Of a stretch of 64,000 nt of DNA, positions 47,723 through 52,894 are shown piece after piece. Origin of the DNA: Streptomyces cinnamoneus (GTDB lineage Bacteria; Actinomycetota; Actinomycetes; Streptomycetales; Streptomycetaceae); the NCBI RefSeq assembly GCF_002939475.1, contig NZ_PKFQ01000001.1, positions 5,267,001 to 5,331,000 of the forward strand, given 5' to 3'. The translations under genes and the position numbers were made by a program. Numbering within the stretch: the stretch's first letter is position 1; every line of letters starts with the position of its first letter. The notes below the pieces were generated by a model. It ran no database searches, was not told the DNA's origin, and saw only the letters and a program-made list of their open reading frames with translations.

Positions 47723-48376
47723 ATGAACAACTCCGTCAGCAACACGGCCCGCCTGCTGGGTGCGGGGCTGCGCGCCCTGCTCGTCCTCACGGTGGTCTGC
47801 GGGGTGATCTACCCCCTGGTGGTCACCGGCATCGCGCAGGCGGTCTTCCACGACAAGGCCAACGGTTCGGAGGTGACGGTGGACGGCAAGTCCGTCGGCT
47901 CCGAGCGGCTCGGCCAGAGCTACAACCTTGCGGACCGGCAGGACAAGGACGGCAACCCGCTGCCGGACCCGAGGTTCTTCCAGCCGCGGGTCTCGGCGGC
48001 CGGGGCCAACACCGAGAACACCCAGTACAAGATCGTGGTGTCGGGCGCGTCCAACCTCGCCGCCGACAGCAAGGTCCTGCTGAAGTCCGTCGAGCAGCGC
48101 CGCGCGGATGTCGCCGCCTTCAACGGCGTCCGGCCGTCGTCGGTGCCGGTGGACGCCCTGACGGCCTCGGCCTCCGGGCTCGACCCGGACATCTCACCGG
48201 AGTACGCCCGCCTCCAGGCGGCGCGCGTCGCCAAGGCCAACGGCCTGCCGCAGGGCGCGGTCGACCGGCTCGTCGAGGACCACGTCGACGGACGGATCCT
48301 GGGCTTCATGGGCGAGGAGCGCGTCAACGTCCTGAAGCTGAACGTGGCGCTCCAGAAGCTGGCGGCCAAGGGCTAG
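47723..48376 (+). CDS. kdpC: Potassium-transporting ATPase subunit C
   Basis: This is a 217-residue accessory subunit with one N-terminal membrane helix (LRALLVLTVVCGVIYPLVVT). The conserved motifs FFQPRVSAAG, GLDPDISPEYARLQAARVA and ILGFMGEERVNVLKLNVAL follow. It is the last gene of kdpFABC, closed by a 13-bp hairpin at 48412-48442. Confidence 0.95.
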   Translation: MNNSVSNTARLLGAGLRALLVLTVVCGVIYPLVVTGIAQAVFHDKANGSEVTVDGKSVGSERLGQSYNLADRQDKDGNPLPDPRFFQPRVSAAGANTENTQYKIVVSGASNLAADSKVLLKSVEQRRADVAAFNGVRPSSVPVDALTASASGLDPDISPEYARLQAARVAKANGLPQGAVDRLVEDHVDGRILGFMGEERVNVLKLNVALQKLAAKG

Positions 48377-48411
48377 GGGAACGGGCCGAGGGCCCCGCGG
48401 CCGTCACGGAG

Positions 48412-48442
48412 ACAGGCCGGGCACCGCGTGTGCCCGGCCTGT
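48412..48442 (+). terminator. Hairpin terminator of kdpFABC
   Basis: A perfect 13-bp stem (48412-48424 with 48430-48442) closes the 5-base loop CGCGT, 36 bases after the kdpC stop. It isolates the potassium operon from the methyltransferase leader that follows. Confidence 0.88.
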
Positions 48443-48505
48443 CCGGCGTCGTGCCCTTGGGGTACAGTTCCGGTTGACCGCAAGAACGATCTTGCCGTCA
48501 CGTCC

Positions 48506-48632
48506 GGTGAACGACCGAGGAGGTGAGACCCATTACCGCTGTAGCAGGCTGGGTGCTCTCCTGTCACGGTCCGACGGTTCACCACGGATAGGTGAACCGG
48601 GAGAGCGCCCTTCGGTCATCCGAAAGGCTCTC
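48506..48632 (+). promoter_or_regulatory. Candidate attenuator leader with competing hairpins
   Basis: GTTCACC at 48577-48583 can pair either with upstream GGTGAAC at 48506-48512 or, extended to 8 bp, with downstream GGTGAACC at 48591-48598. These two structures exclude each other. A third hairpin (48601-48615 with 48620-48632, one internal mismatch/bulge) buries GAAAGG, the ribosome site of the methyltransferase starting at 48633. The short upstream ORF 48523-48591 ends inside the loop of the second hairpin. TACAGT at 48463-48468 is a possible -10. This is the architecture of ribosome-stalling translational attenuators such as erm leaders. Confidence 0.65.
48523..48591 (+). CDS. Short leader ORF (19-22 codons) upstream of the methyltransferase
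   Basis: Reading from GTG 48523 the peptide is MRPITAVAGWVLSCHGPTVH followed by HG and TAG. The complete anti-16S complement AGGAGGTGA spans 48518-48526 and overlaps that GTG, too close for normal initiation. The in-frame ATT at 48532 is 8 bases from AGGAGG, an ideal distance, so a rare AUU start giving 19 residues is possible. The peptide has no known domain and is probably a regulatory leader whose translation changes the folding of the mRNA. Confidence 0.6.
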   Translation: MRPITAVAGWVLSCHGPTVHHG

Positions 48633-49436
48633 ATGTCCGCTTCCCTCACCGCCCCTTCCCTTTCCGCCCTCGTCGCCAGGCTGCGCGCCGCCGGCTGTGT
48701 CTTCGCCGAGGACGAGGCGGACCTGATCGCCTCCACCGCGGCGTCACCCGCCGAGGCCGAGGCCATGGCGGACCGCCGGGCCGCCGGACTGCCGCTCGAA
48801 CACGTCCTCGGCTGGGCCGCGTTCTGCGGCCTGCGCATAGCCGTGGACCAGGGCGTCTTCGTCCCCCGCCGCCGCACCGAGTTCCTCGCCGGCCACGCCC
48901 TCGCGCTCACCCGGCCGGGAGCCGTCGTCCTCGACCTGTGCTGCGGCACCGGTGCGCTCGGCGCGGCGGTCGCCGCCGCCGTGCCCGCCGTGGAGCTGCA
49001 CGCCGCCGACATCGACCCGGCGGCGGTGCGCTGCGCCCGCCGCAACGTCCCCGACCACGTCGGCCGCGTGTACGAGGGCGACCTCTACGCGCCCCTGCCC
49101 GCCACGCTGCGGGGCCGCGTCGACGTGCTGGTCGCCAACGGGCCGTACGTGCCGACCGAGGCGATCGGGCTCCTGCCCCCCGAGGCCCGTGACCACGAAC
49201 CCCTGGTCGCGCTCGACGGCGGTGCCGACGGCCTCGACGTCCAGCGCCGCGTGACCGCCGAGGCGGCGCGGTGGCTGGCGCCCGGCGGCGCCCTGCTCGT
49301 CGAGACCAGCGAGCGACAGGCACAGCGCACGGCCGAGCTCTTCACGGACCACGGCCTGACGCCGCGGATCGTCACGTGCGACGACCTGTACGCCACCGTC
49401 GTCGTCGGCGAGTTGAGAAAAACGCCTGCGCGCTGA
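48633..49436 (+). CDS. PrmC-related putative protein-(glutamine-N5) methyltransferase
   Basis: This is a 267-residue S-adenosylmethionine-dependent methyltransferase of the PrmC-related group (the family I recall as TIGR03704). The helical N-terminal domain is followed by VPRRRTEFLAGHAL, motif I VVLDLCCGTGALGAAVA, and the substrate motif VLVANGPYVPTEAIGLLPPE. In true PrmC release-factor methylases the motif is NPPY; here it is NGPY, and its target is unknown. Start ATG 48633 is chosen because GAAAGG lies 6 bases upstream, inside a hairpin. It has its own leader and is convergent with an aminoglycoside acetyltransferase. Plausible substrates are a ribosomal protein, release factor or rRNA-associated factor. 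Confidence 0.85.
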   Translation: MSASLTAPSLSALVARLRAAGCVFAEDEADLIASTAASPAEAEAMADRRAAGLPLEHVLGWAAFCGLRIAVDQGVFVPRRRTEFLAGHALALTRPGAVVLDLCCGTGALGAAVAAAVPAVELHAADIDPAAVRCARRNVPDHVGRVYEGDLYAPLPATLRGRVDVLVANGPYVPTEAIGLLPPEARDHEPLVALDGGADGLDVQRRVTAEAARWLAPGGALLVETSERQAQRTAELFTDHGLTPRIVTCDDLYATVVVGELRKTPAR

Positions 49437-49539
49437 CGCGCGTTGACGCCACACGGTGAGCCAGTGGCATCAACCTGGCCGGGGAACGGTGCGCGTCACG
49501 CGGCCCGGTGGGGCGTGACCGGCCCGGCCGGCGGTCCGC

Positions 49540-50079
49540 TCACCACACGTCGCCCGGCCGCCAGTCGCACGTCAGCTCCCCGTCCAGGTCGACGTCCACG
49601 CCAGGAACCGGCATCACATAGATGCAGCCGTCCTCCTCCGCCGTGCGTTCGACGCCGGTCGGGGCGAGGACGGAGGCCGGGCCCCGCCACAGCCGCCAGC
49701 CGCGGCCCGTGTACAGCGGGACCGCCTCGTCGGAGGCGCCCAGGGCGCCCAGTTGGTACCCGCCGTCGCGCAGGACGCGCTCCAGGGCCGCCATCACGGT
49801 CGAGCCGTGGCCTTGGCGGCGGCGGTCGGCGCGGACGGCCACGGCCTCCACGTAGCCCGTGCGCAGCGCGCGCCCGCCGTGCAGCAGACGGCGCTGCACC
49901 AGCGAGCCGTGGGCGATCAGCTCACCGGCGTCGTGGACCAGCGCGTGGACGCCGCAGAGGGTGTGGTCCCAGTCCTCGTCCGTGAAGTCGCCCTCGAAGG
50001 CGTCGTCCATCAGGGCCCGGACGGCCGCCAGCTCGGCGGCGGTGAGGGCGGAGGTGTGGGCGGTGCGCAGCTCGGTCAT
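49540..50079 (-). CDS. aac(2')-I: Aminoglycoside 2'-N-acetyltransferase, AAC(2')-I family
   Basis: This is a 179-residue GNAT enzyme with clear end-to-end resemblance to mycobacterial AAC(2')-I enzymes: DDAFEGDFTDEDWDHTLCGV, QRRLLHGGRALRTGYVEAVA, the acetyl-CoA loop VRADRRRQGHGSTVM, LGALGASDEAVPLYTGRGW and the ending ELTCDWRPGDVW. It transfers acetyl to the 2'-amino group of aminoglycosides such as gentamicin and kanamycin B; in mycobacteria a cell-wall role is also suspected. Start ATG 50079 follows GAGG by 6 bases. It lies in reverse orientation between the methyltransferase and kdpD. Confidence 0.9.
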   Translation of the reverse strand: MTELRTAHTSALTAAELAAVRALMDDAFEGDFTDEDWDHTLCGVHALVHDAGELIAHGSLVQRRLLHGGRALRTGYVEAVAVRADRRRQGHGSTVMAALERVLRDGGYQLGALGASDEAVPLYTGRGWRLWRGPASVLAPTGVERTAEEDGCIYVMPVPGVDVDLDGELTCDWRPGDVW

Positions 50080-50341
50080 GGCGTCCTCACGTCGGGGGCG
50101 GACCCGGGCGGCGCCATTGTGCCCGGGTCGCTCACGCGTGCGCACGGGATTTCCGCCCACGGCCCGCCCCCGCAGGACACGGCCGCGGGCGTCAGGACCG
50201 CGTCAATACCTGCCGCCTGAGCGACCCCGGCCCCATTTGTCCGAATCCTTGGCCGTAAGGTCGACCGTACGCGGCAGTGTGGCACCTCAGGACGGAGCAC
50301 CGACCCGAACGCCGTCGCGACTCGTGAAAGACAATGGGGCC

Positions 50342-52894
50342 ATGGGACGCGGGAACCTTCGCATCTACCTCGGCGCGGCGCCGGGCGTCGGAAAGACCTA
50401 CGCCATGCTCTCCGAGGCGCACCGGCGGACGGAGCGCGGCACCGACGTCGTCGTCGGCTTCGTGGAGCACCACGGCCGGCCGCGCACCGAGGTCATGCTC
50501 CACGGCCTGGAGGAAGTGCCCCGCCGCGAGCTGACCTACCGCGACTCGTGCTTCACGGAGATGGACGTCGACGCCGTCCTCGCCCGCCGCCCGGCCGTCG
50601 CCCTCGTGGACGAGCTGGCGCACACCAACGTCCCCGGCTCGCGCAACACCAAGCGCTGGCAGGACGTCGAGGAACTGCTCCAGGCCGGCATCGACGTCGT
50701 CTCCACGGTCAACATCCAGCACCTGGAGTCGCTGGGCGACGTCGTCGAATCGATCACGGGCGTACGGCAGCGCGAGACCGTGCCCGACGAGATCGTGCGC
50801 CGCGCGGACCAGATAGAGCTGGTCGACATGTCGCCGCAGGCACTGCGCCGGCGGATGGCCCACGGCAACATCTACAAGCCGGACAAGGTCGACGCCGCCC
50901 TCTCCAACTACTTCCGTCCCGGCAACCTCACCGCGCTGCGCGAGCTGGCCCTGCTGTGGACGGCCGACCGCGTCGACGAGTACCTGCGGCAGTACCGCAC
51001 CGACCACAGCGTCTCCACCATCTGGCACGCCCGCGAGCGCATCGTCGTCGGCCTGACCGGCGGCCCCGAGGGACGTACGCTCATCCGCCGCGCAGCCCGC
51101 ATGGCCGCCAAGGGCTCGGGCAGCGAGATCCTCGCCGTCTACATCGCCCGCAGCGACGGCCTGACCTCCGCCTCCCCGAAGGAGCTGGCGGTCCAGCGCA
51201 CCCTGGTCGAGGACCTGGGCGGCACGTTCCACCACGTCATCGGGGACGACGTGCCGGCCTCGCTGCTGGAGTTCGCCCGCGGGGTCAACGCCACCCAGAT
51301 CGTGCTGGGCTCCAGCCGCCGCAAGACCTGGCAGTACGTCTTCGGACCCGGCGTGGGCGCGACCGTGGCCCGCGACTCCGGCCCCGACCTCGACGTGCAC
51401 ATCGTCACGCACGAGGAGGTCGCCAAGGGCCGCGGCCTGCCCGTGGCGCGCGGCGCCCGGCTGAGCCGGGGCCGGACCGTGGCCGGCTGGCTGGTCGGCG
51501 TCGGCGGCCCGGCGCTGCTCAGCCTGATGCTGACGCTCGTCGTCCCCGACCTCGGGCTCGCCAACGACATGCTGCTGTTCCTGACCGCGACGGTCGGGGC
51601 GGCCCTGCTCGGCGGCGCGTTCCCGTCGCTGGCCTCGGCGGCCTTCGGCTCGCTCCTGCTGAACTACTACTTCGTCGAACCCGTCCACCAGTGGACGATC
51701 ACCGACACCAAGAACATCGTCGCCATCACGATATTCGTCCTCGTCGCGATCTCCGTCGCGTCGGTCGTCGACGTGGCGGCGCGCCGCACCCACCAGGCGG
51801 CCCGGCTGCGCGCCGAGTCGGAGATACTCTCCTTCCTCGCCGGCAGCGTCCTGCGCGGCGAGACCAGCCTGGACGCCCTGCTGGAGAGGGTCCGCGAGAC
51901 CTTCGGCATGGAGTCCGTGGCCCTGCTGGAACGCGCCAGCGAGGTCGACCCCTGGACCTGTGCGAGCAGCGTCGTGACCACCGACGGCAAGCCGCTGCTG
52001 CGCCCCGACGACGCCGACGTGGAAATGCCGGTGGGCGACAACCTGGCGCTCGCCCTGTCCGGCCGGGTGCTGCCCGCCGAGGACCGGCGCGTGCTCGCCG
52101 CCTTCGCCGCCCAGGCCGCGGTGGTCCTGGACCGCCAGCGGCTGGTGGGGGAGGCCGAGCGGGCCCAGGAGCTCGCCGAGGGCAACCGCATCCGCACCGC
52201 CCTCCTCGCGGCCGTCAGCCACGACCTGCGCACCCCGCTCGCCGCCATCAAGGCCGCCGTCACCTCCCTGCGCTCGGACGACGTGGCCTGGTCGGAGGAG
52301 GACGAGGCCGAGCTGCTGGCCGGCATCGAGGACGGCGCCGACCGCCTCGACCACCTCGTCGGCAACCTGCTCGACATGTCCCGGCTCCAGACCGGCACCG
52401 TGACCCCGCTGATCAGGGAGATCGACCTGGACGAGGTCGTCCCGATGGCCCTGGGCGGGGTGCCCGAGGGCAGCGTCACCCTGGACATCCCGGAGACGCT
52501 GCCCATGGTCGCCGTCGACCCCGGCCTGCTGGAGCGCAGTGTCGCCAACATCGTCGAGAACGCCGTCAAGTACAGCCCCGGCGGAACGCCCGTCCTCGTC
52601 GCCGCCAGCGCCCTGGGCGACCGCGTCGAGCTCAGGGTCGCCGACCGGGGGCCCGGCGTGCCCGACAGCGCCAAGGACCGGATCTTCGAGCCGTTCCAGC
52701 GCTACGGGGACGCGCCGCGCGGTGCCGGGGTCGGGCTCGGCCTCGCCGTCGCGCGCGGCTTCGCCGGGGCCATGGGCGGCACCCTGGCCGCCGAGGACAC
52801 CCCCGGTGGCGGCATGACCATGGTGCTGACGCTGCGGGCCGCGGCCGGCCGGCCGCCCGTGCGCGCGGACCTCCCGGCCCAGATCACGACGTGA
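50342..52894 (+). CDS. kdpD: Osmosensitive potassium sensor histidine kinase KdpD
   Basis: This is an 850-residue sensor kinase. The N-terminal KdpD domain has a P-loop (LGAAPGVGKTYAMLSEAHRR), then VDELAHTNVPGSRNTKRWQD, to about residue 210. A universal-stress-protein-like domain fills ~235-365, which in other bacteria binds c-di-AMP. Four clustered membrane helices (DUF4118) lie about 375-480, followed by a GAF-like domain. HisKA has His627 in AAVSHDLRTPLAAIKAAV, and HATPase has NIVENAVKYSPGG and GVGLGLAVARGFAG. Start ATG 50342 is the family start. kdpE follows 118 bases later. Confidence 0.95.
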   Translation: MGRGNLRIYLGAAPGVGKTYAMLSEAHRRTERGTDVVVGFVEHHGRPRTEVMLHGLEEVPRRELTYRDSCFTEMDVDAVLARRPAVALVDELAHTNVPGSRNTKRWQDVEELLQAGIDVVSTVNIQHLESLGDVVESITGVRQRETVPDEIVRRADQIELVDMSPQALRRRMAHGNIYKPDKVDAALSNYFRPGNLTALRELALLWTADRVDEYLRQYRTDHSVSTIWHARERIVVGLTGGPEGRTLIRRAARMAAKGSGSEILAVYIARSDGLTSASPKELAVQRTLVEDLGGTFHHVIGDDVPASLLEFARGVNATQIVLGSSRRKTWQYVFGPGVGATVARDSGPDLDVHIVTHEEVAKGRGLPVARGARLSRGRTVAGWLVGVGGPALLSLMLTLVVPDLGLANDMLLFLTATVGAALLGGAFPSLASAAFGSLLLNYYFVEPVHQWTITDTKNIVAITIFVLVAISVASVVDVAARRTHQAARLRAESEILSFLAGSVLRGETSLDALLERVRETFGMESVALLERASEVDPWTCASSVVTTDGKPLLRPDDADVEMPVGDNLALALSGRVLPAEDRRVLAAFAAQAAVVLDRQRLVGEAERAQELAEGNRIRTALLAAVSHDLRTPLAAIKAAVTSLRSDDVAWSEEDEAELLAGIEDGADRLDHLVGNLLDMSRLQTGTVTPLIREIDLDEVVPMALGGVPEGSVTLDIPETLPMVAVDPGLLERSVANIVENAVKYSPGGTPVLVAASALGDRVELRVADRGPGVPDSAKDRIFEPFQRYGDAPRGAGVGLGLAVARGFAGAMGGTLAAEDTPGGGMTMVLTLRAAAGRPPVRADLPAQITT

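Follow-up and report, generated by a model that had tools for sequence, protein, structure and literature searches.

The gene of a PrmC-related methyltransferase in Streptomyces cinnamoneus was found to lie behind a leader that, on comparative evidence, represents an apparently undescribed and widely conserved class of actinomycete translational attenuators. Sequence comparison supports the regulatory architecture well and points with moderate confidence to the direction of the switch. The leader probably functions as a ribosome-responsive, erm-like translational attenuator, which would switch on once ribosomes are detained at the leader start or close to it. More speculatively, the methyltransferase itself may protect the ribosome.

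The methyltransferase and its gene

The window, that is, the whole stretch of DNA analyzed, comprised 64,000 nt of S. cinnamoneus (GCF_002939475.1, NZ_PKFQ01000001.1 positions 5,267,001-5,331,000, forward strand), and all positions given below are counted within it. The methyltransferase gene (48633-49436, + strand) encodes a protein of 267 aa, which matched the PrmC_rel_meth family TIGR03704 (E 6.9e-120) with 399.2 bits, above the curated cut-off of 248.8. The score against PrmC (TIGR03534) was 183.9 bits, under the cut-off of 199.1. Judged by these profiles, the protein is a full, HemK-like member of TIGR03704, a family annotated only as putative, and its homology to HemK is clear. Whereas PrmC/HemK carries NPPY at the catalytic site, this motif was absent here, being NGPY in the window and mostly NAPY or NVPY in the relatives, and the true PrmC of the same genome is encoded at another place. 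The catalytic Asn of N-x-P-Y was replaced by Ser (SAPY, SPPY) in several relatives, the methyltransferases of L040, L044, L050, L066 and L086. Within 47723-52894, the gene is flanked on the same strand by likely kdpC (ending at 48376) and likely kdpD (about 50300-52894), and a small acetyltransferase-like ORF lies on the opposite strand at 49540-50160.

Organization of the leader

The leader elements all lie on the + strand, in a region (48463-48633) which folds better than shuffled sequences (z = -3.6, none of 200 shuffles being as good). The original prediction had described an ORF of 19-22 codons with a full Shine-Dalgarno (SD) sequence, and such an ORF was indeed present. The SD, AGGAGGTGA (9 nt, 48518-48526), is followed in frame by an ORF (48532-48591) extending from ATT at 48532 to TAG at 48589-48591 and encoding ITAVAGWVLSCHGPTVHHG, which has 19 codons, or 22 when counted from a GTG within the SD. 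The ORF contains no ATG, and the non-canonical ATT is its likely start codon. The sequence AGGAGGTGA was found in 84 of 133 methyltransferase leaders and AGGAGGTGG in 27.

Four segments were recognized in the alignment, of which segment 2 pairs with 3, 3 with 4, and 2 with 1. Segment 1, GAGACCC (48525-48531), is located between the leader SD and the leader start and can pair with segment 2, GGGTGCTCTC (48551-48560), 95.9% of the cells being paired in alignment A1. Segment 3, GAGAGCGCCC (48601-48610), can pair with either segment 2 or segment 4. Segment 4, CCGAAAGGCTCTC (48620-48632), was paired with segment 3 in 91.7% of the cells, with AU/GC exchanges, and holds the ribosome site GAAAGG (48622-48627), confirmed ahead of the ATG at 48633. 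Between segments 2 and 3 lies a hairpin around the stop codon (48575-48599), with arms CGGTTCACC (48575-48583) and GGTGAACCG (48591-48599), whose two helices were 83% and 68% paired with several changes on both sides. The leader stop had been placed within the loop of this hairpin; the TAG is actually at the junction of the loop and the 3' arm.

A consensus promoter scan gave no match at the leader. The hexamer TACAGT (48463-48468) fits TANNNT and may be a -10 element, a weak assignment lacking a good -35; among the methyltransferase leaders, TANNNT occurred some 19-40 nt ahead of the leader model, its position varying from one leader to another. A perfect inverted repeat, GCAAGA-ACGA-TCTTGC (48480-48495), lies downstream of the putative promoter and upstream of the leader as a possible operator or 5' hairpin, and by eye it was not conserved among relatives.

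Distribution and target genes

A search with the window DNA found a match in 151 of 199 genomes of the genus. The leader accompanied genes of relatives in Streptomyces, Kitasatospora, Actinomadura, Nonomuraea, Microtetraspora, Crossiella, Rhodococcus, Saccharopolyspora, Arthrobacter and others, and was not found with the Paenibacillus and Brevibacillus relatives of the protein. From 56 methyltransferase leaders a covariance model was built, which matched 92 of 297 sampled actinomycete genomes, covering 32 of 114 genera with up to five copies per genome, and had no match in the sample of other classes of the phylum. As a second model, built from leaders of other genes (sister leaders), also recovered the methyltransferase leaders, both sets belong to one class. 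The leader precedes at least five families. Besides the methyltransferase (TIGR03704), they include rifampin monooxygenase (NF033145, E 4.5e-249), GNAT acetyltransferase, a patatin-like protein and an alpha/beta hydrolase, about 243-254 aa long, that has an esterase structure among its relatives. A second copy in the same genome (C1:110570-110709; L002, L184) starts with ATG, encodes MKAVSVWVLPPFVTVGD and lies ahead of a GNAT acetyltransferase gene. In plasmid records, too, the leader lay ahead of genes, whose annotations were rox, alpha/beta hydrolase and GNAT.

The rifampin monooxygenases behind leaders L187, L190, L194, L197 and L264 often have about 35-40 N-terminal residues resembling the leader-controlled hydrolase, as if the rox gene had been fused behind the control region of the hydrolase. 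Leader control of TIGR03704 genes is not universal in actinomycetes, because some of these genes lack the leader; L052, L056, L067, L094, L070, L072 and L080 adjoin or overlap the end of an upstream ORF.

No Rfam covariance model matched the leader up to E = 1, and the leader was absent from the S. lividans attenuator table. The open literature searched contained no description of the leader, of TIGR03704 in connection with antibiotics, or of a rifamycin-associated element of this kind; a prior description in a subscription journal is possible.

Translation of the leader ORF

Frame 0 was defined by the triplet 8 nt after AGGAGG, and a stop was scored when located at most 25 nt upstream of segment 3. 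Under this definition, 119 of the 133 methyltransferase leaders had a stop in frame 0, versus 30 and 11 in the other two frames. Seventeen leaders lack one nucleotide before segment 2, and 15 of them nonetheless stop in frame by various means (binomial 1e-8, taking as reference how often leaders without the shift stop in that frame). About 13 frame changes were placed on the tree, with the frame-specific stop retained throughout. Together with the conserved 9-nt SD, these comparisons are good evidence that the ORF is translated from the start of the element, providing the short leader ORF with its own SD that is typical of erm-type control.

Because the frame-specific stop was kept through these frame changes, the comparison shows that the peptide past about codon 3 is not what selection keeps. 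Neither a conserved stalling peptide nor conserved stalling codons were found in the methyltransferase leaders, in which the frame shifts alter the peptide from about codon 4; the peptide is conserved only within groups of ATG/GTG leaders (WVLP). An amino-acid attenuator was also considered and rejected. A Trp codon is nearly invariant in the ATG/GTG leaders (43/44), but in the methyltransferase leaders this position mostly encodes Arg or Trp and occasionally Gly, so that no single regulatory amino acid is indicated. The distance from the start codon to segment 2 was 18-20 nt in 130 of 133 leaders. Since this spacing is kept and the frame and peptide are not, arrest at initiation or during very early elongation is the more likely trigger, over a peptide-specific stall.

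Conservation at the RNA level was strong through segment 2, whatever the frame. This feature, along with the lack of an Rfam family, would suit a riboswitch-like RNA whose structure recognizes a ligand or protein and in which the ORF is incidental; the retention of the stop through about 13 frame changes and the 9-nt SD argue instead for translation, and we regard such an RNA as very improbable.

The start triplets of the 133 methyltransferase leaders were ATT (97), ATC (26), GTT (3), GTC (2), CTG (1), ATG (1) and GTG (1), two of the 133 being probably misregistered by one base. While ATT and ATC dominate here, with ATG or GTG in only 2, 58 of 67 sister leaders have ATG or GTG at that place (ATG 35, GTG 23, ATC 6). 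This bias would suit a sensor of the initiation state, in which the leader, by way of its ATT/ATC codon, would report how active IF3 is or how faithful initiation is, and not the presence of antibiotics; weaker discrimination would lead to more leader starts, and the methyltransferase would be made. A precedent exists in Streptomyces, where infC starts with ATC and sigR with GTC, and IF3 was shown to repress sigR translation (PMC5472188). On the other hand, the sister leaders share the architecture with canonical starts, so that the switch can do without a non-canonical one, and 132 of the 133 methyltransferase leaders have an in-frame GTG within the SD, though initiation at a codon overlapping its own SD, which leaves no room for another, is unlikely. 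Such a sensor is therefore possible but not favored. It is rather doubtful that the methyltransferase branch in particular reads the initiation state through a required AUU/AUC start and that its enzyme is an undescribed translation-stress or drug-modifying enzyme.

Alternative pairing of the segments

Comparison of the leader across genomes found the covariation expected of an erm-like attenuator with mutually exclusive stems, and the leader and its hairpins proved to be conserved. In the methyltransferase leaders, column 101, in segment 3, covaried with columns 49 and 135 (101/49: UA 24, CG 15; 101/135: AU 19, GC 18). One position of segment 3 and its partners in segments 2 and 4 formed the triple U-A-U in 27 of 128 leaders and C-G-C in 24. 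Each of the two pairs was Watson-Crick in 80 of 128 leaders, a number reached by none of 2000 shuffles (means 48 and 55). On the protein tree, joint changes occurred on 13 branches for segments 3 and 2 and on 11 for segments 3 and 4, versus 4.2 and 4.5 expected. Segment 3 thus covaries with both partners, one of the resulting stems lying over the ribosome site of the gene. No covariation was detected for the stem of segments 1 and 2, as segment 1 is nearly invariant in the alignment; because of this, their pairing is proposed from complementarity.

The original prediction of competing hairpins over the ribosome site of the gene therefore held, with conservation and covariation in more than 120 methyltransferase leaders, but the conserved segments are not those it had named. 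The conserved competition, absent from that prediction, sets the pairing of GGGTGCTCTC (48551-48560) with GAGAGCGCCC (48601-48610) against GAGACCC (48525-48531) and CCGAAAGGCTCTC (48620-48632). A GTTCACC segment had been thought to choose between two GGTGAAC copies. Both copies exist (48506-48512 and 48591-48597), but their competition is not conserved: only 1 of 32 scorable leaders had an upstream sequence exactly complementary to the hairpin arm, so that pairing with the upstream copy at 48506-48512 is probably due to chance. That switch was rejected, the upstream copy being peculiar to the window sequence.

The covarying alternatives of segment 3 would be needless in a simple reinitiation or coupling device, in which the leader ORF delivers ribosomes to the gene or melts its ribosome-site hairpin irrespective of any signal. 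Leader genes near structural genes are common in Actinobacteria and were proposed to raise expression (PMC4833913); the leader stop here is about 41 nt upstream of the ATG of the gene, past the 10-11 bp peak of that proposal, and coupling of this kind seems unlikely. Control at the level of transcription, with the stem of segments 3 and 4 acting as a terminator, would resemble the attenuation by uORFs reported for Streptomyces wblC, lmrC and are5sc (PMC7157823, PMC8546547, PMC12421871). A terminator scan found none and no U-tract follows the hairpin, which runs across the ribosome site up to the ATG, making a terminator quite unlikely.

Proposed mechanism and energetics

In erm, cat and other resistance genes, leader ribosomes that stall open such structures. 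For the translational attenuator favored here, segment 1 at rest would pair with segment 2, closing over the start of the leader ORF, and segment 3 would pair with segment 4, hiding the GAAAGG site of the methyltransferase. With ATT or ATC as its start, a class of codon that IF3 selects against, the leader would have low basal ribosome occupancy. If a ribosome is halted at the leader start or on the first codons, it would cover segment 1, and segment 2, once freed, would pair with segment 3, releasing segment 4 and allowing translation of the methyltransferase.

The two states were forced in silico in 128 methyltransferase leaders, and the cost of opening the ribosome site of the gene was computed. 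The median cost was 13.3 kcal/mol in the 1:2 state and 10.3 kcal/mol in the 2:3 state, the site being easier to open in the latter for 98 leaders and harder for 16. Folding with and without a ribosome footprint agreed in part with the original prediction. A footprint at the leader start made the 2:3 pairing cheaper in 92 of 128 methyltransferase leaders and 59 of 66 sister leaders, but the unpaired probability of the SD did not rise with a ribosome parked on the leader and gave no clear signal, whereas the opening energies did. In the RNA of the window itself, the stable state is already that of the 2:3 fold (P = 0.95), and a small hairpin encloses the SD of the gene whichever state is formed. 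The calculations consequently lend the switch moderate thermodynamic support, since the SD unpaired probability shows no effect and the window RNA already adopts the 2:3 fold.

Promoters and inducing signal

The WblC site is GAAAWY, 3 nt upstream of the -35, and its regulon is induced by translation-targeting antibiotics (PMC7157823). A WblC-type motif, GAAA-N3..6-TTG, was found upstream of 20 of 67 sister leaders, with 0.24 expected from shuffles. Among the methyltransferase leaders, a promoter of the WblC/WhiB7 type was seen in 1 of 135, and that of the window leader is not of this type. Lincosamide, streptogramin A and pleuromutilin (LSAP) antibiotics are reported to arrest ribosomes on the start codons of the Streptomyces are5sc and tiaA uORFs (PMC12421871). 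Given the WblC-type promoters of the sister leaders and the known arrest of Streptomyces uORFs at the start codon, translation-inhibiting antibiotics are most likely the inducing signal. The sister copies ahead of rifampin monooxygenase and GNAT genes, many with WblC/WhiB7-type promoters, were counted for this antibiotic link. Rifampin monooxygenase acts on an inhibitor of RNA polymerase, not of the ribosome, and its presence among the targets means that other signals are possible.

Relation to known systems and significance

The leader shares with the erm and cat attenuators an ORF with a strong SD, four mutually exclusive segments and a ribosome site of the gene that would be hidden at rest. 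It differs from them in that the peptide and frame are not conserved, the start is not ATG and segment 1 lies between the SD and the start codon; a response to drugs is presumed. With the uORF attenuators of wblC (whiB7), tiaA, are5sc and lmrC it has in common the actinobacterial hosts and the short uORFs, to which are5sc and tiaA add start-codon arrest (PMC12421871) and several sister leaders a WblC-type promoter, whereas wblC, are5sc and lmrC were described as transcriptional attenuators and differ in sequence and target genes. The IF3-controlled infC (ATC) and sigR (GTC) use the same class of start codon (PMC5472188); there the regulated protein itself starts at this codon, while here the leader ORF does.

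These findings point to a common and testable control element for five families of actinomycete genes about which little is understood; one of them, a known rifampin-resistance enzyme, has this leader on plasmids too. Genes known to use non-canonical start codons for regulation are few (infC, sigR), and a leader ORF would join them on account of its conserved start. The element predicts the conditions under which its target genes are turned on, and may thereby offer a route to the function of the PrmC-like methyltransferase (TIGR03704).
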